A stretch of 31,982 bases of DNA. Origin: a virus. Below the pieces are notes generated by a model. The model ran no database searches. It saw only the letters and a program-made list of their open reading frames with translations, and was not told the origin of the DNA. A program made the position numbers and the translations under genes. The stretch is taken from positions 1 to 31,982 of the IMG/VR virus record IMGVR_UViG_3300034073_002357, one strand, 5' to 3'. The first letter of the stretch is position 1. The number at the start of each line of letters is the position of its first letter. Shown here one piece after another: positions 3,081 through 31,982 of the stretch.

Positions 3081-3543
3081 CCGTTCTGTCTTTATCATCG
3101 AGCAAGTCAGGCAAGCACTGGATCAGAATGCGCTATTCAATGTGACTAAAGTGCATCGGCCTAAGTTCGGGACTAACGTAAACTGTTATCCCTACATCGT
3201 GCAGCAGCGAACAAACTATACGCTAGAGGATGGAGCCGGAGACAGTATCGGTACTGTCACTATCGGTATTCTTTTCGACGCGAATGTGAGCAGCGATACG
3301 CAGGGAGCAGGACTCGGAACAGACAAGTATGGAGAGATCGTGCAGGCCTGTGAGGATGCTTTCGCGAATTGGGAAATGGATGTATTATCCGATAAGCCAT
3401 CTGATGAACATACCGGAGCATTATTCAAAACAATCATTACCGGTGTATCATTCATCGGATGGGATGGTCATTGGGACAACGGAGCGAACACTATCGCTAT
3501 AGGTTGCCAGATTGAAGTGAACTATATGCACATATCTCTATGA
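3070..3543 (+). CDS. Probable tail terminator / tail completion protein
   Basis: The 157-residue product fits the usual length and position of tail terminator proteins, which hexamerise at the end of the tail tube and allow joining to the head. It has an N-terminal helix (VFIIEQVRQALDQNALF) followed by alternating beta strands, including TVTIGILFDAN and a C-terminal strand ending IEVNYMHISL. This alpha plus beta pattern is typical of lambda gpU and gp17-like folds. It sits just after the gp10-like gene and, apart from an inserted glycosyltransferase, just before the major tail protein. The call is from context and fold pattern. Confidence 0.55.
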   Translation: MYANRSVFIIEQVRQALDQNALFNVTKVHRPKFGTNVNCYPYIVQQRTNYTLEDGAGDSIGTVTIGILFDANVSSDTQGAGLGTDKYGEIVQACEDAFANWEMDVLSDKPSDEHTGALFKTIITGVSFIGWDGHWDNGANTIAIGCQIEVNYMHISL

Positions 3544-4304
3544 GCGAGCCTGAAGAACCTACCATCGACAAACGCTACCCTGTTTCGTTCGTAGTCATTA
3601 CTTGTAATGAAGACTTGCAACATCTGGCAGCGATGGTCGAAACACTGCCAGAATATTGTGAAGTGTGCATACTTAGCAATATGCAGGGGACAGAAGAGAG
3701 CCTGAGTGAAGTTGAGACCTTACAGCAGGGCACACGAACTATCCATAATCGTAAATGGATTTATACCGGAGTTTTCCACTTCGGTCAGGCAAGAAATTAC
3801 GCTGACGAAATGGCGACCAATGATTGGAGATTCTGGATAGACTCTGACGATCGACTTGCGAGCTGCCATCACAAGACGATACTAAGAGTAGCGAAGCAGG
3901 CTCCACCGGGTATCGGTGGTGCTTTCGCTGGCGTGGCATCTTACGAGCCAGACTATAGCAACAAAACACATTTGGGTTTCGGCATAATCAGTAGCGATTA
4001 TCAGCTAAGGATGTACCGCGGTTCATGTGGTGCCAAGTGGTCTGGCAGGATCCACGAACAAATCTATCCGGATCTGAAGAGACTTGGTTGGGGATCCCTG
4101 CCAACAAACGTCATCGTTATTCATGAGGGTTATAACGCTTCACTTGAAAAGCGATTAGAGAAAATGGAACGCAATGTCGAACTCTTGTTGATCGAGGTTA
4201 ACGAGAATCAGGATGATGGCTTGCGATCTTTTTATGCTAATTCGCTGCGAGACTCGATGAACGCTATGACCGAAATGCAATCACAACTAAAACAAGGATT
4301 ATAA
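3540..4304 (+). CDS. Family 2 (GT-A) glycosyltransferase inserted in the tail operon
   Basis: The 254-residue protein has a GT-A beginning (PVSFVVITCNE, residues 14-24) and a metal-binding DXD-type motif at residues 101-104 within WIDSDDR. A second conserved-looking segment, WSGRIHEQIYP, lies further on and is typical of family 2 transferases of the tetratricopeptide/WaaE type. It should transfer a sugar from a nucleotide sugar. The start overlaps the tail terminator stop (ATGA), and the major tail protein follows after two bases, so it is expressed with structural genes. Acceptors could be a virion protein or a hydroxylated DNA base made by the oxygenase at 23003-23845. No membrane segment is seen, so action on host surface sugars is less likely. 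Confidence 0.8.
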   Translation: MSEPEEPTIDKRYPVSFVVITCNEDLQHLAAMVETLPEYCEVCILSNMQGTEESLSEVETLQQGTRTIHNRKWIYTGVFHFGQARNYADEMATNDWRFWIDSDDRLASCHHKTILRVAKQAPPGIGGAFAGVASYEPDYSNKTHLGFGIISSDYQLRMYRGSCGAKWSGRIHEQIYPDLKRLGWGSLPTNVIVIHEGYNASLEKRLEKMERNVELLLIEVNENQDDGLRSFYANSLRDSMNAMTEMQSQLKQGL

Positions 4305-5845: not shown

Positions 5846-8800
5846 TAAACTTAGTCTCGATGTCAAAGACTTTCTGAAAGGTGTTAAGCAAGCAGAGCGA
5901 GCGTCCGAGGGATTAGGGCAAGCCGGAGAGGAAGCACTAAAGAGTGTAGCAGAAGCTGCAAAGAATGCAGGCCAAACTATACAGGATTCATTCGTTGAGG
6001 GATTCGCATCACTACCGAGTATCGTTAGTGGTGCTGTGTCGTCTCTTGCAGCAGGCCTGACATTAGAGGGAATTACCAGCACTATTAGTGGTATTGTCGG
6101 TGGCTTTGATAATGTTCTTAACACCGGACGAGACCTGATCACTGCACAAGGTGACCTGCAAGCTAAGACTGGATTAGTCGGAGCAGAGTTTGAGAAGTTG
6201 AAGCAGCAAGCTACCGAGGCCTACAAGTTAGGAGTAGGAGAGAGCGTAGCAGAGGCCAACAAAATTATTGGCCAGACACAGCAGTTGCTCGGTGACGCTC
6301 TTGACCCGGATGAGTTAGGCAAATTCACTGCACGAGCGCAGGCACTCGGCAACCTCTACGACAAGGACGTCAACGAGGTAATCGCCAAAGCTGCACCTTT
6401 CGTCAAGCAGTTTGGCTTAGAGGGTGACAAAGCGTTTGAACTTATTTCTTTGGGTCTGCGTGACGGCGCAACTTCACAGGATGATTTACTTGATACGCTC
6501 GGAGAATATTCTCAATTAGTTTCCAAAGCTGGATTCGATGCAGCAGAGTTTGTTGGGATCATCACAGCAGGTACAGAAGCCGGTATATTCAATACTGACA
6601 AGCTCGGCGATGCGATCAAGGAAGCAGACATCCGGCTGAAAGCTGGCGACGTAAGCAATACCTTGAAAGGTTTGGCCGAAGAACTACCGAGCGTATTGTC
6701 TGGTAGCTTAGGTCAAATTGTAGCTAACGGTGAAGCTGGTATTCTCAGTACTAAAGAGGTAATCCAGCAGTATCAAGCAGAGGTCACCAAGGCCTTTGAA
6801 GCCGGAGATATTACCGAGGCACAGAGAGCGCAATTACAGGTAGGCCTTGCAGGTACACCGGTAGAGGATATTGGTCAAGACAAGTTCGCTGAATTGTGGG
6901 GTACTATCCTCGATCCAGCAGCAGTAGAGGCGCAAGCACAGCAGGCCGGACAATCAGTAGATAACGCTCTCGGACAGTACCTGACATTTGATGCTTTAAC
7001 GAGGCAATTCGAAGTTGTATTTGCTGAGGTATCAGCGACGATCGTTTCTGCTCTCTCAGAAGTATTCGCGATATTCTCGGACACTATCGCTCCGACGCTT
7101 TCGCGAGTCGGCGAAACTTTAGGCAATGTATTCACTAATGCGTACACGGTGCTGCAGCCTATCTTAGCAGCGATAGGTGGTGCAGTGATCGGAACTTTAG
7201 TGACAGCTTTCCAAGCCGTCGGTGAAGTGCTTCGTGTGATTGTTTCTAATATCGAGACTGTACAGGAAGCTGTATTTGAAGCGTTCGCGCCAATCGCCGA
7301 GGCACTAGGATTAGTAGGCGAGTCGGGAGAAGAAGCAGGATCGATCATCGATACTTTCAAAGAAATCCTACTGGTCGTAGGGGAAGTATTGAAGACCGTA
7401 GCAGATATCTTTATCGGTGCTTTCAAGATCGCGATTGAAATTGCGATCGTGCCTCTGACCTTGATCGCTGATGTAGCAGCAGCAGTAATTGATTGGTTTA
7501 AGTCTTTATTCAGCAGCACTGAGGATGTTAGCAAGGCTATGGAACAATCTGTTCCATTCTTGCAGCAGGTTCGCAATGTGCTTGACCTAATTCAGAGAGG
7601 CGCACAAGGAGTCGTCAATATTTTCAAGGTAGTGAAAGACACTATCGTTGACGTCGTAAAGGCTATTGCTAATCTGGATTTCAAAGCAGTGATCGATAGT
7701 CTTACCGGTTTCGGAGAGAAAGCAGGAGCTGCATGGGACGACGCTTTCAAGAAAGAGCCGGTAGCCGAGCAAACAGATGAATTGAAGAAGAACGAAGATC
7801 AAACCAAAAAGAACGAGAAAGCAGCTGACGATCTGAACAAGAAGCTGGACAAAACAAAAGACAAGGGTAAGAAAGCAAAGGATGAAATTGGTAAGCTGAC
7901 AGCAGAGCTAAGAAAGCTGCAACTTGAAGAACAGAAAGCAGCAGAGATCGAGCAGGCGAACACTATCGCCGATGCTACGGAACGTCAATTAGCAATATTG
8001 GTGATCGAAAGAAAGTACGCGCGAATAGGTTTGGAGGAACAGCTTGCAGCTATTAAAGGTAATAACCGTGAAGCTGAATTGCAGCGCGAGATATTAAACG
8101 CTAAACTACTAAGCCTCGACCGTGATTTTGAGAATCGCCGATCGGATGTCATTGCAGCAGCGAACGTAAAGAGGTTCGATCAGCAGATCGCCATTCAGAA
8201 GCGTACTAACGAAGCTAGTAAGAAGCTGAATGAAGAGCTAATCTCGGCATTAGAGAAGCAGGTATCATTAGGGAATGTAGGTGCAGTCGCGAACCTGCTT
8301 AAAGCTAATCGAGTGCAGATCGAGGATGCACTGAGCGACAGCCTAGATGCGATCACTGAATCCACACCGGAATTCAAATCAGGTATTGAAGAAATCCGTA
8401 GGCAGCTTAGTGAAGGACTAATCGATGTAGATCAGGCCAGAGCGAACGCTGACATATTGCGACAAACTATCTTAGAAAGACTACTCGCTATACCCGGCGA
8501 ATCTAATGTATTCGCTAGGCAGGTACAGAAACTTTACAAGGATGCTGCTGACCAGATTCAGGAAACAGAAGCAGCAGTACTCGACTCGGCAGAGGAAAGC
8601 AGGATCAGCCGTATCGGAAGTGACCTGCTGCGTAATATCGAATTGCGTGTCAGGGAACTGCAGAAAGAACGCGACCAGATATTGGAGAACACCGAGCTGA
8701 CAGAGGCTCAGAGGGAAGCGATCGAAGAGGCATTCTCAGAAAAGATCGATGAAGCTCGTAGAGGTTCGCTCCGTGATTTCGGTACAGCAGTAGAGGAGAT

Positions 8801-9803
8801 TATCGCTGCTGCGGAAAGTTTCACTTTCGAGTTTGATACAGAAGCAGCGGTACAAGCTGCTGAGGAATTCAAACAAAAGCAGGAAGAGATTAACGAACAA
8901 CTGCGTAATGGAGAGATCAGCTACCAAGAAGCTATCGATCTATTAAGTCAATTGGAATCGGAAGCATCATCTACAAGCTCGATCCTTGGTGATGTCTTTT
9001 TGCAAGCATTGGAGCAGACTGCAGAGGTAGCAAGGGAACAAGTCAAGCTATCCATCGATGCATTCAACGAGCTGAGAGCCGAGGCTCGGAAAGTTGCTAG
9101 CGACGAAACACTGACAGCAGATCAAAAGCGCGAAGAGCTGCTAAAGATTAACGAGAAATTAGCTGAACAACAAACAGGTATTTACGAGCAGATCGGTATT
9201 CAAGCTGCATCGGCATTCGTTACGGCGATCGCTAGTGGCGAGGATGCTTTCAAGTCTTTGGTAGTCGTAGCTCTGGATGCTTTGCAAGCTCTTATTCCGA
9301 TATTCACTGCACAGATTTTTGGTATCAATGCAGCGTCGCCGAACCCGGCTAACGCTTTCAGCTTCAGCGCTGCTGGTATAGCTGCTGCTGCTGCTACTAC
9401 CGCGATCCTACAAGGTCTCGTATCTGCTGCGAGAGCGTCGGTAGCTGGTTTCAAGGACGGTGGATATACTGGTAACGTAGGGGTAAATCAGGTAGCCGGT
9501 GTAGTACACGGTAGAGAGTTTGTCGTCAACGCTGCTGCGACTGCTAAATACCGGGATGTACTTGAAGCGATGAACAATGGCAAGCCGTTAGACTTGATTG
9601 CCAAGGATGGCAATAGTGGTAGATATTTTGATCTTAATGGTGGAGTGAACAATATGGTCTCGATCATGTCGGATGTTCGTGACCGGCTTGACCGGATACC
9701 AGATCAAGCATTTATGAAGCAGCAGATCGGAGTCGATCTGGCTCTTGATGATAGGCTATACGAGAAACAAAGATTCATCAAACAAGTTAGGAAGCTCAGG
9801 TAA
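5829..9803 (+). CDS. Tape measure protein
   Basis: This is the longest gene (1324 residues). It starts with GTG directly after an AGGAGAGG ribosome binding site. Features in order are an N-terminal helical region with Ala/Gly-rich stretches (residues 1-130), a globular alpha-helical part, long hydrophobic helices at about residues 390-560, a Lys/Glu-rich coiled coil at about 645-720, further long coiled coils to about 1110, then an Ala-rich hydrophobic segment and a C-terminal GGYTG...GVVHGREFVVNAAAT motif typical of tape measure C-termini. It sets tail length and is ejected into the host. At about 1.5 angstrom per residue it predicts a flexible tail near 200 nm, long for a 32-kb genome. Confidence 0.9.
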   Translation: MAELTNKLSLDVKDFLKGVKQAERASEGLGQAGEEALKSVAEAAKNAGQTIQDSFVEGFASLPSIVSGAVSSLAAGLTLEGITSTISGIVGGFDNVLNTGRDLITAQGDLQAKTGLVGAEFEKLKQQATEAYKLGVGESVAEANKIIGQTQQLLGDALDPDELGKFTARAQALGNLYDKDVNEVIAKAAPFVKQFGLEGDKAFELISLGLRDGATSQDDLLDTLGEYSQLVSKAGFDAAEFVGIITAGTEAGIFNTDKLGDAIKEADIRLKAGDVSNTLKGLAEELPSVLSGSLGQIVANGEAGILSTKEVIQQYQAEVTKAFEAGDITEAQRAQLQVGLAGTPVEDIGQDKFAELWGTILDPAAVEAQAQQAGQSVDNALGQYLTFDALTRQFEVVFAEVSATIVSALSEVFAIFSDTIAPTLSRVGETLGNVFTNAYTVLQPILAAIGGAVIGTLVTAFQAVGEVLRVIVSNIETVQEAVFEAFAPIAEALGLVGESGEEAGSIIDTFKEILLVVGEVLKTVADIFIGAFKIAIEIAIVPLTLIADVAAAVIDWFKSLFSSTEDVSKAMEQSVPFLQQVRNVLDLIQRGAQGVVNIFKVVKDTIVDVVKAIANLDFKAVIDSLTGFGEKAGAAWDDAFKKEPVAEQTDELKKNEDQTKKNEKAADDLNKKLDKTKDKGKKAKDEIGKLTAELRKLQLEEQKAAEIEQANTIADATERQLAILVIERKYARIGLEEQLAAIKGNNREAELQREILNAKLLSLDRDFENRRSDVIAAANVKRFDQQIAIQKRTNEASKKLNEELISALEKQVSLGNVGAVANLLKANRVQIEDALSDSLDAITESTPEFKSGIEEIRRQLSEGLIDVDQARANADILRQTILERLLAIPGESNVFARQVQKLYKDAADQIQETEAAVLDSAEESRISRIGSDLLRNIELRVRELQKERDQILENTELTEAQREAIEEAFSEKIDEARRGSLRDFGTAVEEIIAAAESFTFEFDTEAAVQAAEEFKQKQEEINEQLRNGEISYQEAIDLLSQLESEASSTSSILGDVFLQALEQTAEVAREQVKLSIDAFNELRAEARKVASDETLTADQKREELLKINEKLAEQQTGIYEQIGIQAASAFVTAIASGEDAFKSLVVVALDALQALIPIFTAQIFGINAASPNPANAFSFSAAGIAAAAATTAILQGLVSAARASVAGFKDGGYTGNVGVNQVAGVVHGREFVVNAAATAKYRDVLEAMNNGKPLDLIAKDGNSGRYFDLNGGVNNMVSIMSDVRDRLDRIPDQAFMKQQIGVDLALDDRLYEKQRFIKQVRKLR

Positions 9804-22356: not shown

Positions 22357-23037
22357 ATGCGTACCGAAACAGACAAAAGACAAGTTGAATACGTAGCGGT
22401 CTCGGCTCTGACTCCATATGCGCTTAACAGCCGGAAGCATAGCCCCAAGCAGGTGAAGCAGATCGCTGCAAGCATACGCGAGTTCGGATTCACCAACCCG
22501 GTTCTGATTGATGCTAATGACGTTATTATCGCTGGACACGGTCGTGTACTTGCAGCGGAGCATTTGCAGCTCGATCAGGTTCCGTGCATCCGATTGGAGA
22601 ACCTGACTGAAACACAGATCAAGGCCTACGTACTCGCAGATAATAAGCTGGCAGAAAATGCCACATGGGACGAGGAAATGTTACTGCTGGAAATCGAGGC
22701 TCTCAAAGCAGTAGACTTCGATATCGATATTATCGGCTTCGATGTGCCTCAGCTCGATGCAGTCACTAACAGCGATTCCCCACAGCCCTCTGTACTAGAG
22801 GCTCCGGAGCGATTGAAAAATCCTGATGAAGCATTCGACGATTACGAGAACAGCACCATCCGTCAAATCATCCTGATTCTGGACACTGAGGAATACGACT
22901 CCGTGATCCATTCGCTAGACTTGATCAAGGACAAGCACGGCTTCACGAATAACACCGAAGCAGCTCTTTACGCTATAAACGCTTTGATCAATAGTGGTGG
23001 ATATGAGAACAGTATATCTGAAAAAGAAGCCGGTTAA
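22357..23037 (+). CDS. ParB-like nuclease/CTPase-fold protein without methylase domain
   Basis: The N-terminal half (residues 10-105) is a ParB/sulfiredoxin-type domain: LTPYALNSRKHSPKQVKQIA, then GFTNPVLID, the signature AGHGR at residues 59-63, and VLADNKLAENATWDEEML. In many phages this domain is fused to a DNA methylase, but here the frame stops with no MTase domain and continues as a C-terminal extension (STIRQIILILDTEEYDSVIH). It overlaps the oxygenase gene by 35 bases, so the two are made together. It may guide or regulate DNA modification, nick DNA, or act in packaging. Confidence 0.8.
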   Translation: MRTETDKRQVEYVAVSALTPYALNSRKHSPKQVKQIAASIREFGFTNPVLIDANDVIIAGHGRVLAAEHLQLDQVPCIRLENLTETQIKAYVLADNKLAENATWDEEMLLLEIEALKAVDFDIDIIGFDVPQLDAVTNSDSPQPSVLEAPERLKNPDEAFDDYENSTIRQIILILDTEEYDSVIHSLDLIKDKHGFTNNTEAALYAINALINSGGYENSISEKEAG

Positions 23038-23845
23038 CCTGCTAGATTATAAGCAGAGACGAGCCAAGCCGGAGGACTGCAGTATCAGCATCAACGAGGA
23101 ATGCAGGATCATCGATGAGGACAGTGGCAAAGCAATTGCACTTTATTGTAAGCCACAAGGAGAGGACGCGGTATTCGACGATCTGTACGAGGCCTGCAGT
23201 ACTACCAAGTTCACTACGCATCCTCGCACAAATGGGATGGTTAGTACAAGTAAAATCTTTGGCTACAATCCTCGTAACGCTATCCGTAAAGACTTCTGCT
23301 CCGTAGCACATTATGCCAGAGAGCAACCACAGCAGCACAACGCTGTAGTAATGGCCGGAGTCCTAGCAGCCAAGTACTACGCTCTGCATAACCCGGAGCT
23401 GTACGCTTCTCACCTGCAGACCACCACGGAAAAGATCAATGAAGATTATCGACTATTAGACCTACCGTTCACGTCAGGTATCGTGAATGAAAACAATCCT
23501 TTGGCATACCATTTCGATTCTGGCAATTTCAAGAACGTATGGTCTGCCATGATTGTTCTAAAGAGGGATATAGCCGGAGGCTACCTCGCCATGCCCGAGT
23601 ATGACGCTCTCGTCGAGGTAGCAGACAAATCAATATTCTATTTCGATGGTCAGAGCATCCTGCACGGTGTGACGCCTATCTCCAAGCTGAACGAACAAGC
23701 TCGACGATACTCGATTGTTTACTATTCACTGCAGGCTATGTGGAACTGCCAACCTTTACGTGAAGAGATCGCAAGAGCTAGAATGCGTAGGGAGCAAGTC
23801 GAGCATAACCGGCTAACCAAGAAAAGAACAAATGGCAGCCAATAA
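23003..23845 (+). CDS. TET/JBP-type 2-oxoglutarate/Fe(II) DNA dioxygenase
   Basis: The start is ATG 23003; GTG codons at 22994 and 22997 are upstream alternatives. With this start (280 residues) the metal and cosubstrate residues appear as H170-x-D172 (YHFDSGN), H221 (HGVTPI) and R235 (ARRYSIVYYS). Spacings D to H of 49 and H to R of 14 are close to JBP1 (H189, D191, H239, R255), and the GGYLAMPEY strand matches the family. It should hydroxylate thymine or 5-methylcytosine in DNA. No cytosine C5 methylase is present, so thymine or a host-made 5mC is the likely substrate. ParB-like and FkbM-like genes flank it with overlaps. Confidence 0.75.
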   Translation: MRTVYLKKKPVNLLDYKQRRAKPEDCSISINEECRIIDEDSGKAIALYCKPQGEDAVFDDLYEACSTTKFTTHPRTNGMVSTSKIFGYNPRNAIRKDFCSVAHYAREQPQQHNAVVMAGVLAAKYYALHNPELYASHLQTTTEKINEDYRLLDLPFTSGIVNENNPLAYHFDSGNFKNVWSAMIVLKRDIAGGYLAMPEYDALVEVADKSIFYFDGQSILHGVTPISKLNEQARRYSIVYYSLQAMWNCQPLREEIARARMRREQVEHNRLTKKRTNGSQ

Positions 23846-24536
23846 GACGAAAATCATCAAGGCAGGTACCGGATATTTCTCAGTCCGTGAAAACACTTCT
23901 GATCTGAAAGCGATCAAAGAGGTGGTGGTCAACGAGGCCTATAAGCGTCGTGGCTTCGTGCCAGAGCCTGATGAGGTCTGGATCGATATAGGTGCGAACT
24001 GTGGAGCATTCAGCGTATGGGCAGCGAAGAAAGGATGCAGGGTAATCGCATTCGAGCCTGATCCGGAGAACGCTGCAATCGCCCAATCCAATATTGATCT
24101 AAACAATGTTTCAAAGTCAGTCAAGCTGTACACCTTAGGACTGACTGCAGAGGATGAACCGAAACGACTATATTTCTACCGGAACACTGCGAACGGTAAC
24201 GTGTGGCGCAATAGTCTTTACAAAGAGTGGCGTGGAGGGGAAAGAATCGCAGTGGACACCGTACCAGTAGAGGCTTACTGGAATCCCGATTATTGTATTA
24301 AGCTGGATGCAGAGGGAGTCGAAATGCCCATCCTCGAAAAGTACGGACACATCAAGGTAAAAAAACTCGTATTCGAATGGTCGTTTGACATCGATCCATC
24401 GATCAAGCGATTCAACGACGTAATCGATAAACTGAAAAACATTTACGACAATGTGCAGTACGGTGGATTCCAAGCCGGCTACGAAACGTGGCAACCATCG
24501 TGGTTCCCTGCTGCACGTATGGTCTGGTGCTACTAA
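23832..24536 (+). CDS. FkbM-type SAM-dependent methyltransferase
   Basis: The 234-residue protein has the class I methylase signature: DIGANCGAFS at residues 52-61 (SAM binding motif I), E75 in FEPDP (motif II), and the FkbM hallmark KLDAEGVEMPIL at 157-168. FkbM enzymes O-methylate small molecules or sugars. Here the gene starts 14 bases inside the oxygenase gene and precedes the small terminase by one base, which suggests it methylates the product of the oxygenase (for example a hydroxymethyl base or an added sugar) before packaging. That reaction is inferred. It does not carry DNA cytosine or adenine methylase motifs. Confidence 0.8.
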   Translation: MAANKTKIIKAGTGYFSVRENTSDLKAIKEVVVNEAYKRRGFVPEPDEVWIDIGANCGAFSVWAAKKGCRVIAFEPDPENAAIAQSNIDLNNVSKSVKLYTLGLTAEDEPKRLYFYRNTANGNVWRNSLYKEWRGGERIAVDTVPVEAYWNPDYCIKLDAEGVEMPILEKYGHIKVKKLVFEWSFDIDPSIKRFNDVIDKLKNIYDNVQYGGFQAGYETWQPSWFPAARMVWCY

Positions 24537-24865
24537 TGGCAAATAAGAAAGCTGACGTTGATCCGGAGCAAGTCCAGAAGCTGGCAGCGATCGGATGTAC
24601 TCATCAGGAAATATCCGATATAGTCGGATGCTCGCACGATACACTGACTCGGCGATTCAGGAAAGAAATCGAGTTCGGACGAGCGAACGCCAAAGCATCT
24701 CTACGTAGGAAGCAGTGGGAGACAGCATTGTCAGGTAACGTCACAATGCTAATCTGGCTAGGCAAACAAGTCCTAGGTCAAAGCGATAAACAAGAAATCA
24801 CGCAAGGTGGTGAAATCATTATCGACTTTACTTCCAAGCCAGATGAAAACAAAAGCAGTAATTAA
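24536..24865 (+). CDS. terS: Terminase small subunit-like HTH protein
   Basis: The start is ATG 24536, overlapping the preceding stop (TAATG). The 109-residue product has an N-terminal helix-turn-helix (VQKLAAIGCTHQEISDIVGC followed by SHDTLTRRF), then a helical oligomerisation region with LIWLGKQVLGQSDK, typical of small terminases. It recognises the packaging site and regulates the large subunit, whose gene overlaps it by 23 bases. Confidence 0.85.
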   Translation: MANKKADVDPEQVQKLAAIGCTHQEISDIVGCSHDTLTRRFRKEIEFGRANAKASLRRKQWETALSGNVTMLIWLGKQVLGQSDKQEITQGGEIIIDFTSKPDENKSSN

Positions 24866-25997
24866 GATAGATCCGACGGAACCTCAGAGACGCTTTCTCC
24901 AAGACCCTGAGAAAGTAGTCGCGTTCGTTGGTGGTATCGGCTCTGGCAAAACATTTGCAGGTGTGATCAAAATCTTGATGCAGCCACCCAATACAATCGG
25001 AGCTGTGGTCGCTCCTACGTACCCGATGCTCCGTGACGCTACCATTAGGAGCTTTAAGGATATATGCGCACCATTAATCACAAAGTGGCGTGACAGTCCT
25101 AACGTATCAGCAGTACTTCGTGACGGAAAGGAAATACTGTTTCGCTCCGGCGATAATCCTGATTCGCTACGAGGCCCGAACTTGAATTGGTTTTGGATGG
25201 ACGAAGCAGCCTATTGCGAGGAGGCAGTATTCGATGTAATGTTAGGACGTATCCGTAGAGAGCCTACAGCAGCATGGGCGACCACGTCACCTAATGGAAA
25301 GAATTGGGTGTACGATTCTTTCAAGCCGGGTAATCCTTATGGCTATTCGCTGCACACATCCAGCACGAGGGATAACATACACCTAGCCAAAGACTACGTA
25401 CAGACTCTGATCAACAGGTACAGCACTAACCACGCTCTGCAGGAAATCGAGGGACAATTCATCGATTTCGAGGGAGCCAGAGTAAAGCGCGATTGGCTCC
25501 GATGGGTAGACCGTGTACCCTCTGATCTGTATATCACTATGGGAGTCGATCTGGCTATTAGTACTAAAACCTCTGCAGACTACACAGCGTGTGTCGTAAC
25601 CGGTAGGGACGCCAATGGCATGATATATGTCTTAGACGTCCAGAGGATACAGCAGGGATTCCACGGTATCATCAATTTCGTTTCGGCTATGTCGCAGCAG
25701 TGGCAGCCGAGCGTGATCGGAGTCGAGTCAGTGCAGTTTCAACAGGCCGTGGTTGAAGAGCTGTTGATGAGAGGCTTACCGGTGCAAGCGATGAAGCCTA
25801 CCAAAGACAAAGTATCAAGGTTCCTGCCAATAGAGGGTAAGATCGAACACAATCAAATAACCTTAAAGCAAGGTATCAATCCAGACTTCGTAGACGAGCT
25901 ACTGACATTCCCAGAGGGAGCGCACGACGATATGGTGGACGCTCTGGTATTTGCAGTAGATTCGTTCTACAATACTTTCCAAGTGGTGACTATATGA
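24843..25997 (+). CDS. terL: Terminase large subunit
   Basis: The start ATG 24843 (in frame with a longer open stretch) gives 384 residues. ATPase motifs are Walker A GGIGSGKT (30-37), Walker B WFWMDEAA (116-123) and the coupling motif TTSPNGKNW (148-156). The nuclease domain has acidic residues D236 (MGVDLAIS), E295 (GVESVQ) and D362/D363/D366 (GAHDDMVDA). It powers DNA translocation into the prohead and cuts the concatemer. It is short for a TerL but all motifs are present. The end overlaps the portal start by four bases. Confidence 0.95.
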   Translation: MKTKAVIKIDPTEPQRRFLQDPEKVVAFVGGIGSGKTFAGVIKILMQPPNTIGAVVAPTYPMLRDATIRSFKDICAPLITKWRDSPNVSAVLRDGKEILFRSGDNPDSLRGPNLNWFWMDEAAYCEEAVFDVMLGRIRREPTAAWATTSPNGKNWVYDSFKPGNPYGYSLHTSSTRDNIHLAKDYVQTLINRYSTNHALQEIEGQFIDFEGARVKRDWLRWVDRVPSDLYITMGVDLAISTKTSADYTACVVTGRDANGMIYVLDVQRIQQGFHGIINFVSAMSQQWQPSVIGVESVQFQQAVVEELLMRGLPVQAMKPTKDKVSRFLPIEGKIEHNQITLKQGINPDFVDELLTFPEGAHDDMVDALVFAVDSFYNTFQVVTI

Positions 25998-31090: not shown

Positions 31091-31982
31091 ATGGGGAACA
31101 TAATGAGCGATAAAATCCAAGTCACTGCTGACGGCCTTGCGATAACCAATGATGCAGGCAAGAAAGTAATCATCCGTACAAACCATTCTGCCACTTCAGA
31201 TCAGTACATCGATCTCCCGAGCAGTGGAGGTACGATCAGTACAGCAGAGAGCGCGACGGATACAGACGAGAAAACTAAGATTTCAAGTAACGATACCAGA
31301 GCCGATTATCTTGAAAACAAACTTGTAGCTGGATCGAATATCACCTTGACGACGAACAACGATGGTGGTAATGAAACGATCACGATCGCAAGTGCAGGTG
31401 GTGTCGATACAGATGAGAAAAGCAAAGTGTCTGCTAATGATACCACTGCAGGGTATTTGAACGGAAAGCTCGTAGCCGGCTCTGGCATTAGCTTTACAGA
31501 GAACAACAATGGTAGCGACGAAACACTAACCATCGCCAGCACGGTAACCGATCAACTTGTAAAGGCACGATCGAGCGACACGACAGCAAACTATCTTGCT
31601 TCGAAGTTGGCAGAGGGTACCGGCATTTCGTTTAACATTCTAAACAGTGGCGGTAACGAACTTATCAGCATTGCCAGCACAGTAACGAATACCGATCAAC
31701 TTGCAAAGGTTAGCAGCAACGATACAACAGCCGGGTATTTGAATGGCAAGCTAGTTGCCGGCTCCGGCATTACTCTTACTGAGGGCAGCGACGGCGGAAA
31801 CGAAACGCTAACCATTGCAGCAAGTGGGGGCGGTGGTGGTGCCGGTGGATTTACTTTTTATGATGTGACGCTAAGAGATTGCGAGAATACTTCTAGCTCT
31901 GTCAAAATCATCGAAACTACAATCCCAGCTAACACGTGGGAGGACGGGCAAGCCCTAACGCTTGACATTGCGTATGATATAT
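31091..31982 (+). CDS. Tail fibre, 5' part with tandem repeats (continues at window start)
   Basis: This is the start of the tail-fibre gene (ATG 31091, or 31103 giving MSDKIQVTADGLAI), open to the window end and continuing to 510 on the circle, total about 424 residues. After an N-terminal anchor it has four tandem repeats of about 47 residues (D-x-K-S-N-D-T-x-x-x-YL-x-x-K-LV-AG-x-x-I), then a Gly-rich hinge (SGGGGGAGGF) and the C-terminal tip domain. Such repeats build a trimeric beta-structured shaft in phage fibres. The gene is placed after the capsid genes and is likely to determine host range. Confidence 0.75.
   Translation, partial: MGNIMSDKIQVTADGLAITNDAGKKVIIRTNHSATSDQYIDLPSSGGTISTAESATDTDEKTKISSNDTRADYLENKLVAGSNITLTTNNDGGNETITIASAGGVDTDEKSKVSANDTTAGYLNGKLVAGSGISFTENNNGSDETLTIASTVTDQLVKARSSDTTANYLASKLAEGTGISFNILNSGGNELISIASTVTNTDQLAKVSSNDTTAGYLNGKLVAGSGITLTEGSDGGNETLTIAASGGGGGAGGFTFYDVTLRDCENTSSSVKIIETTIPANTWEDGQALTLDIAYDI
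31256..31825 (+). repeat. Four tandem shaft repeats within the tail-fibre gene
   Basis: About 570 bases encode four units of roughly 46-49 residues, each with NDT/SDT, a YL-x-x-KL segment, a G-x-x-I turn and a G-NE/DE-x-I/L-x-IAS end. Units 2 and 4 are closest (both contain AGYLNGKLVAGSGI). Confidence 0.8.
31856..31982 (+). repeat. 127-base exact repeat of the window start (circular assembly overlap)
   Basis: All 127 bases equal bases 1-127. A tail-fibre frame is open through the join, and 127 is a common assembler k-mer length, so this is most simply an overlap from a circular contig. Unique genome length is then 31855 bases. A real terminal redundancy of this exact length would be a coincidence. 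Confidence 0.85.

Follow-up and report, generated by a model that had tools for sequence, protein, structure and literature searches.

A short run of genes directly upstream of the terminase genes in the IMG/VR record IMGVR_UViG_3300034073_002357 raises the question of whether this phage modifies its own DNA and, if so, which base is altered and what is added to it. The stretch analysed (the window) covers positions 1 to 31,982 of that record, and all features described below lie on its + strand. The run consists of genes for a ParB-like protein (22357–23037, 226 aa), a TET/JBP-family 2-oxoglutarate/Fe(II) dioxygenase (23003–23845, 280 aa; hereafter TET), an FkbM-family SAM-dependent methyltransferase (23832–24536, 234 aa), a probable small terminase subunit (24536–24865; phrog_309 terminase small subunit, E 1e-6) and the large terminase subunit (24807–25997; PF03237 at 54 bits and PF17289 at 41.5 bits), the last being the usual right-hand neighbour of such cassettes. 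The ParB-like and TET genes overlap by 35 nt and the TET and FkbM genes by 14 nt; the small terminase frame opens at a GTG at 24488, and its likely start, an ATG at 24536, overlaps the stop codon of the FkbM gene. An earlier note, prepared by reading the sequence, had described three overlapping genes upstream of terminase, and this description holds, as the open reading frames lie at these positions and their families are matched by profiles. The reading that the ParB-like protein, the TET/JBP-family DNA pyrimidine hydroxylase and the FkbM enzyme form one conserved cassette is supported.

An end-to-end comparison of the record detected an exact overlap of 127 bases (positions 1–127 are identical to 31856–31982). 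Because its ends have these 127 bases in common, the genome is probably complete at 31,855 bp and either circular or circularly permuted, in which case the absence of genes for a C5-cytosine methylase, the TET-associated glycosyltransferase TAGT and the amino-acid:DNA transferase ADDT would be meaningful. Specifically, PF00145 found no match across the whole record, in agreement with the previous statement that no C5 cytosine methylase is encoded.

The product of 23003–23845 is a genuine TET/JBP-family protein. A profile search against TET/JBP families matched PF12851 (Tet_JBP) at 54.8 bits, above the cut-off of 34.9. Translation may start at the ATG at 23003 or at a GTG at 22994, and residue numbers are counted from 23003. 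The JBP/TET-like spacing given in the earlier note is correct: the Fe(II)-binding H170-x-D172 (23510–23518) and H221 (23663–23665) and the 2-oxoglutarate-binding R235 (23705–23707) are placed as claimed, and all four residues are invariant in an alignment of 48 sequences. A PDB search with the single sequence gave no meaningful match, and a profile search of the PDB matched CMD1, NgTet1 and TET2 weakly. With the AlphaFold2 model (pLDDT 94), the first 26 PDB matches of the fold search were all CcTet, CMD1, TET2 or NgTet1, and a structural aligner superposed 255 residues on TET2 (Z 20.6, rmsd 3.6 Å). The mycobacteriophage TET genes (e.g. L010:813-1691) are labelled ‘queuine tRNA-ribosyltransferase’ in many records, a label that, for homologues of Tet_JBP, is likely a misannotation.

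The methyltransferase gene is matched by TIGR01444 (70 bits, cut-off 37.7) and PF05050 (41.2 bits, cut-off 22.7), and phrog_28597 covers residues 8–234 of the protein. In an alignment of 10 cassette FkbM proteins, the SAM-binding motif DIGANCGAF (residues 52–60, 23985–24011) and the FkbM motif KLDAEGVE (D-x-E-G-x-E; residues 157–164, 24300–24323) can be followed throughout, with W50, D52, G54, N56, G58 and F60 invariant around the former and K157, D159, E161, G162 and E164 in the latter. Fold matches to the AlphaFold2 model (pLDDT 89) are led by viral FkbM proteins; the PDB yields only general class I methyltransferases, and the substrate therefore cannot be read from the fold. FkbM enzymes elsewhere act on sugars and other molecules too. 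The best near-full-length matches in sequenced phages are those of MED4-117, MED4-184/P-HS2 and HTVC112P, and in all of them TET adjoins FkbM, even though only 102 of 50,697 phage records have a TET match at all; the order is ParB-FkbM-TET-terminase in the isolated Prochlorococcus phage MED4-184 (38-kb record) and ParB-TET-FkbM in Pelagibacter phage HTVC112P. The L030 record has another FkbM gene at a distance of about 14 kb from TET, which belongs to a different subfamily within a tail/glycan cluster and was set aside.

The ParB-like protein is assigned by PHROG 620 (E 5e-56), with the ParB N-terminal domain PF02195 scoring 25.3 bits and so narrowly missing its cut-off of 26.3. Of the 95 TET loci examined (some of them near-duplicates), 89 encode a ParB homologue, so the ParB-TET arrangement is not a matter of chance, and the protein may serve as a DNA-binding or targeting factor. 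In MED4-184 (L091), the gene at 8351-8992 is called ‘DNA methylase’ in the record, and its sole Pfam match is a ParB-like domain.

TET loci for comparison were drawn from viral contigs, two bacterial assemblies and several sequenced phages; a scan of bacterial genomes returned only two distant relatives. In the loci examined, TET mostly lies close to terminase, with a single variable gene beside it. ParB-TET-terminase recurs in phages as a module in which only the slot next to TET varies. Across 95 loci, a count that includes some near-duplicates, the slot enzymes are TAGT (50 loci), FkbM (15), an unclassified glycosyltransferase-like protein (15) and the amino-acid:DNA transferase ADDT, and none of the 95 combines two kinds of slot enzyme. 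The identity of TAGT is backed by a Pfam match in 9 of 10 aligned slot members. The TAGT profile finds nothing in any of 13 FkbM-slot records, and TAGT PF20691 has no match in the window, where the slot is occupied by FkbM. In some loci the slot glycosyltransferase is followed by PIG-L deacetylases or sugar epimerases, neighbours to be expected where a sugar is the decoration.

Two further kinds of cassette were seen during this survey. The second slot family (15 loci; L007:9528-10496, L006:1535-2503 and relatives) resembles GT-B glycosyltransferases by eye only, and searches with members such as L007:9528-10496 matched no Pfam family and no PDB sequence. Other TET cassettes (L076:8782-10639, L089 and L097:1658-3057) carry ADDT accompanied by either a PLP-type enzyme or a P-loop kinase, which suggests an amine-decorated thymine begun by TET hydroxylation in DNA and not by a modified nucleotide pool.

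The contents of the slot have changed repeatedly. When FkbM is mapped as a label onto the TET tree, nine changes are required, at least seven of which are forced by strong branches. The clearest single case is the pair L014 (FkbM) and L020 (TAGT, 35.4 bits), which share 89.5% DNA identity across ParB-TET and, beyond the slot, 83% in the first part of the following gene, the slot gene alone having been swapped. An exchange between FkbM and TAGT makes sense if both enzymes use the same TET product, and so clean an exchange suggests that FkbM is an alternative to glycosylation and not a later step. Since FkbM takes the spot of the TET-associated glycosyltransferase, its place in the pathway is well supported.

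Which base TET acts upon is a separate question. The earlier note had named thymine or host 5-methylcytosine as the likely substrate; neighbouring genes and pocket residues now favour the former, and the latter is kept as the less likely rival. Three lines of evidence, none of them proof, make thymine the more likely substrate through genomic context and the residues of the pocket. According to the rival explanation, which we consider unlikely, TET would oxidise host-made 5-methylcytosine to 5-hydroxymethylcytosine, from which FkbM would make 5-methoxymethylcytosine. TET homologues of solved structure do use 5-methylcytosine, and a C5 methylase adjoins the phage TETs of the Melnitz type (64 of 71 loci in that group). 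However, no such methylase is present in the probably complete genome of the window, and a C5-methylase match was obtained in only 5 of the 50 records searched, one of these being the Melnitz control; C5 methylases are nearly absent from the present TET group.

The same TET group repeatedly contains ADDT, which argues against the cytosine reading: six of the 44 records have it, the four Melnitz-type ones all lacking a match, and in MossRose it occurs together with a P-loop nucleotide kinase; the ADDT search gave no match in the window record. In phages M6, ViI and phi W-14, thymidine is hypermodified by way of 5hmdU, on which a dedicated kinase and then additional transferases act (PMC6449724). 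As ADDT is an enzyme of thymidine-type hypermodification that recurs in the ParB-TET group, thymine is favoured.

Pocket residues separate the two groups as well. N175 (23525–23527) stands three positions beyond the Fe-binding Asp. All 88 relatives compared (ParB-type TETs) have Asn there, and all 58 of the C5-methylase-linked Melnitz-type enzymes have Asp, a difference that speaks against host 5-methylcytosine. L243 (23729–23731), aligned with the His of ‘VYFAHKG’ in NgTet1, is Leu in 84 of 88 ParB-type proteins versus Asp in 54 of 58 Melnitz-type ones. The NgTet1 residues matching both positions contact 5-methylcytosine. Human TET2 has Asn at the first of these positions and yet acts on 5-methylcytosine, and for this reason the pocket residues are suggestive only. 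The TET of HTVC112P has Asp/Arg instead of Asn/Leu and, as it differs at both positions, the pairing with FkbM may span more than one base.

If thymine is hydroxylated, it has to be asked what FkbM then methylates. Either the hydroxymethyl base or an attached sugar had been proposed, and the two parts of this proposal fare differently: membership of the pathway stands, given that FkbM replaces the TET-associated glycosyltransferase, and a methylated sugar is the less likely product, FkbM never being in the same locus as a cassette glycosyltransferase. In the sugar-based explanation, which we regard as distinctly unlikely, the product of 3540–4304 or a host enzyme would first attach a sugar to the hydroxymethyl base, and this sugar would be the substrate of FkbM. 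Indeed, the genome has a GT2-type glycosyltransferase gene at 3540–4304 (PF00535 at 27.3 bits, cut-off 23.3), and sugars are among the substrates that FkbM enzymes can use. However, this gene is flanked by a head-tail adaptor gene and a tape-measure gene, thus standing among tail genes, and no homologue of it was found in any other TET locus compared. On these grounds it was rejected as a member of the pathway, together with the idea from the earlier note that it could join the cassette in making a glycosylated, methylated base; it is probably an accessory for virion or host/surface glycosylation. HTVC112P has a GT9 gene beside its tail fibre gene, unrelated to the GT2 of the window, and a sugar on the base is conceivable in both phages insofar as each has an unrelated tail-region glycosyltransferase. 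In MED4-184, however, FkbM pairs with TET and no glycosyltransferase was found in the 38-kb record. Together with the mutual exclusion of FkbM and the cassette glycosyltransferases (no shared locus), which makes a methylated sugar less likely, this argues against a glycosylated, methylated base.

Another explanation, which strikes us as improbable, is that TET oxidises its substrate to the carboxyl level and that FkbM makes a methyl ester or methylates another atom of the oxidised base. Stepwise oxidation is possible for TET enzymes, and FkbM would still suit the slot beside TET; however, the other occupants of the slot are glycosyltransferases, whose reaction requires a hydroxyl group, and TETs that are nearly identical pair with either kind of enzyme. 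That FkbM is an unrelated accessory, such as a tail or glycan methyltransferase that entered the slot by chance, is very improbable, for although FkbM genes occur in other phage contexts and the slot is a hotspot of exchange, the FkbM proteins found with TET, on either side of it and across different terminase families, make up a subfamily of their own that is linked to it, and the best full-length matches in sequenced phages all adjoin TET.

To post-replicative hypermodification of thymine we assign a slightly better than even chance: TET would convert thymine to 5-hydroxymethyluracil, and FkbM would then convert this to 5-methoxymethyluracil. The ParB-like protein would bind or target the phage DNA, the TET/JBP dioxygenase would hydroxylate the 5-methyl group of thymine within that DNA, the presumed substrate, and FkbM, if the predicted chemistry is right, would use SAM to methylate the hydroxyl so formed; the modified base may then shield the phage DNA against host nucleases before packaging. 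The further claim that TET and FkbM place 5-methoxymethyl-2′-deoxyuridine in phage DNA as a modification exchangeable with glycosylation is advanced tentatively, its chances lying somewhat below even.

ParB-TET arrangements and TAGT are already known, and FkbM as an exchangeable decorator was not found in the literature searched. The same literature search found no report of methoxymethyluracil in phage DNA and none linking FkbM with phage hydroxymethyl DNA, although priority is not established by this in either case. Biochemical work on members of the cassette was likewise not found. If the proposal is true, hydroxymethylated bases in phages can be capped by a methyl ether besides sugars or amines, which would mean a new DNA base and a new role for FkbM enzymes. 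Such a cap would be a small and chemically quiet counter-defence, and the methyl ether might go unnoticed by enzymes that read bases with a hydroxymethyl or glucosyl group. The clean exchange of genes between near-identical phages presents the cassette as a kit of modular DNA decorations and, even if the chemistry is another, the swap tells which step of the pathway is performed by the slot enzyme. As the cultured phages MED4-184 and HTVC112P have the FkbM-TET pairing, the base is directly testable.

Among known systems, the ParB-TET-TAGT cassettes of Mycobacterium phage Acadian and Arthrobacter phage Prairie are similar in that a ParB-like protein, a TET/JBP enzyme and a decorating enzyme are encoded in one run, which in Acadian adjoins terminase, as does the cassette of the window. 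The difference lies in the decorating enzymes, theirs being a glycosyltransferase with a PIG-L-type deacetylase and that of the window an FkbM methyltransferase. The Melnitz-type systems of TET plus C5-cytosine methylase likewise have a phage-encoded TET-family enzyme expected to use DNA, but their adjacent methylase supplies 5-methylcytosine, whereas the window lacks this gene and has different pocket residues. Trypanosomatids make base J by hydroxylating DNA thymine with JBP, after which a decoration is added to the hydroxyl (PMC6449724). Hydroxylation in DNA followed by decoration would be common to that pathway (JBP1/2 plus a glucosyltransferase) and to the window, if its substrate is indeed thymine; unlike base J, the system of the window is phage-borne, has a ParB-like partner and is predicted to decorate by O-methylation instead of glucosylation. 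Finally, ViI, M6 and phi W-14 would share with the window the 5-hydroxymethyluracil intermediate, and ADDT and kinase genes are present in the ParB-TET group. Those phages synthesise 5hmdU at the nucleotide level, ahead of replication (PMC6449724), whereas the 5-hydroxymethyluracil of the window would arise within the DNA itself through TET.
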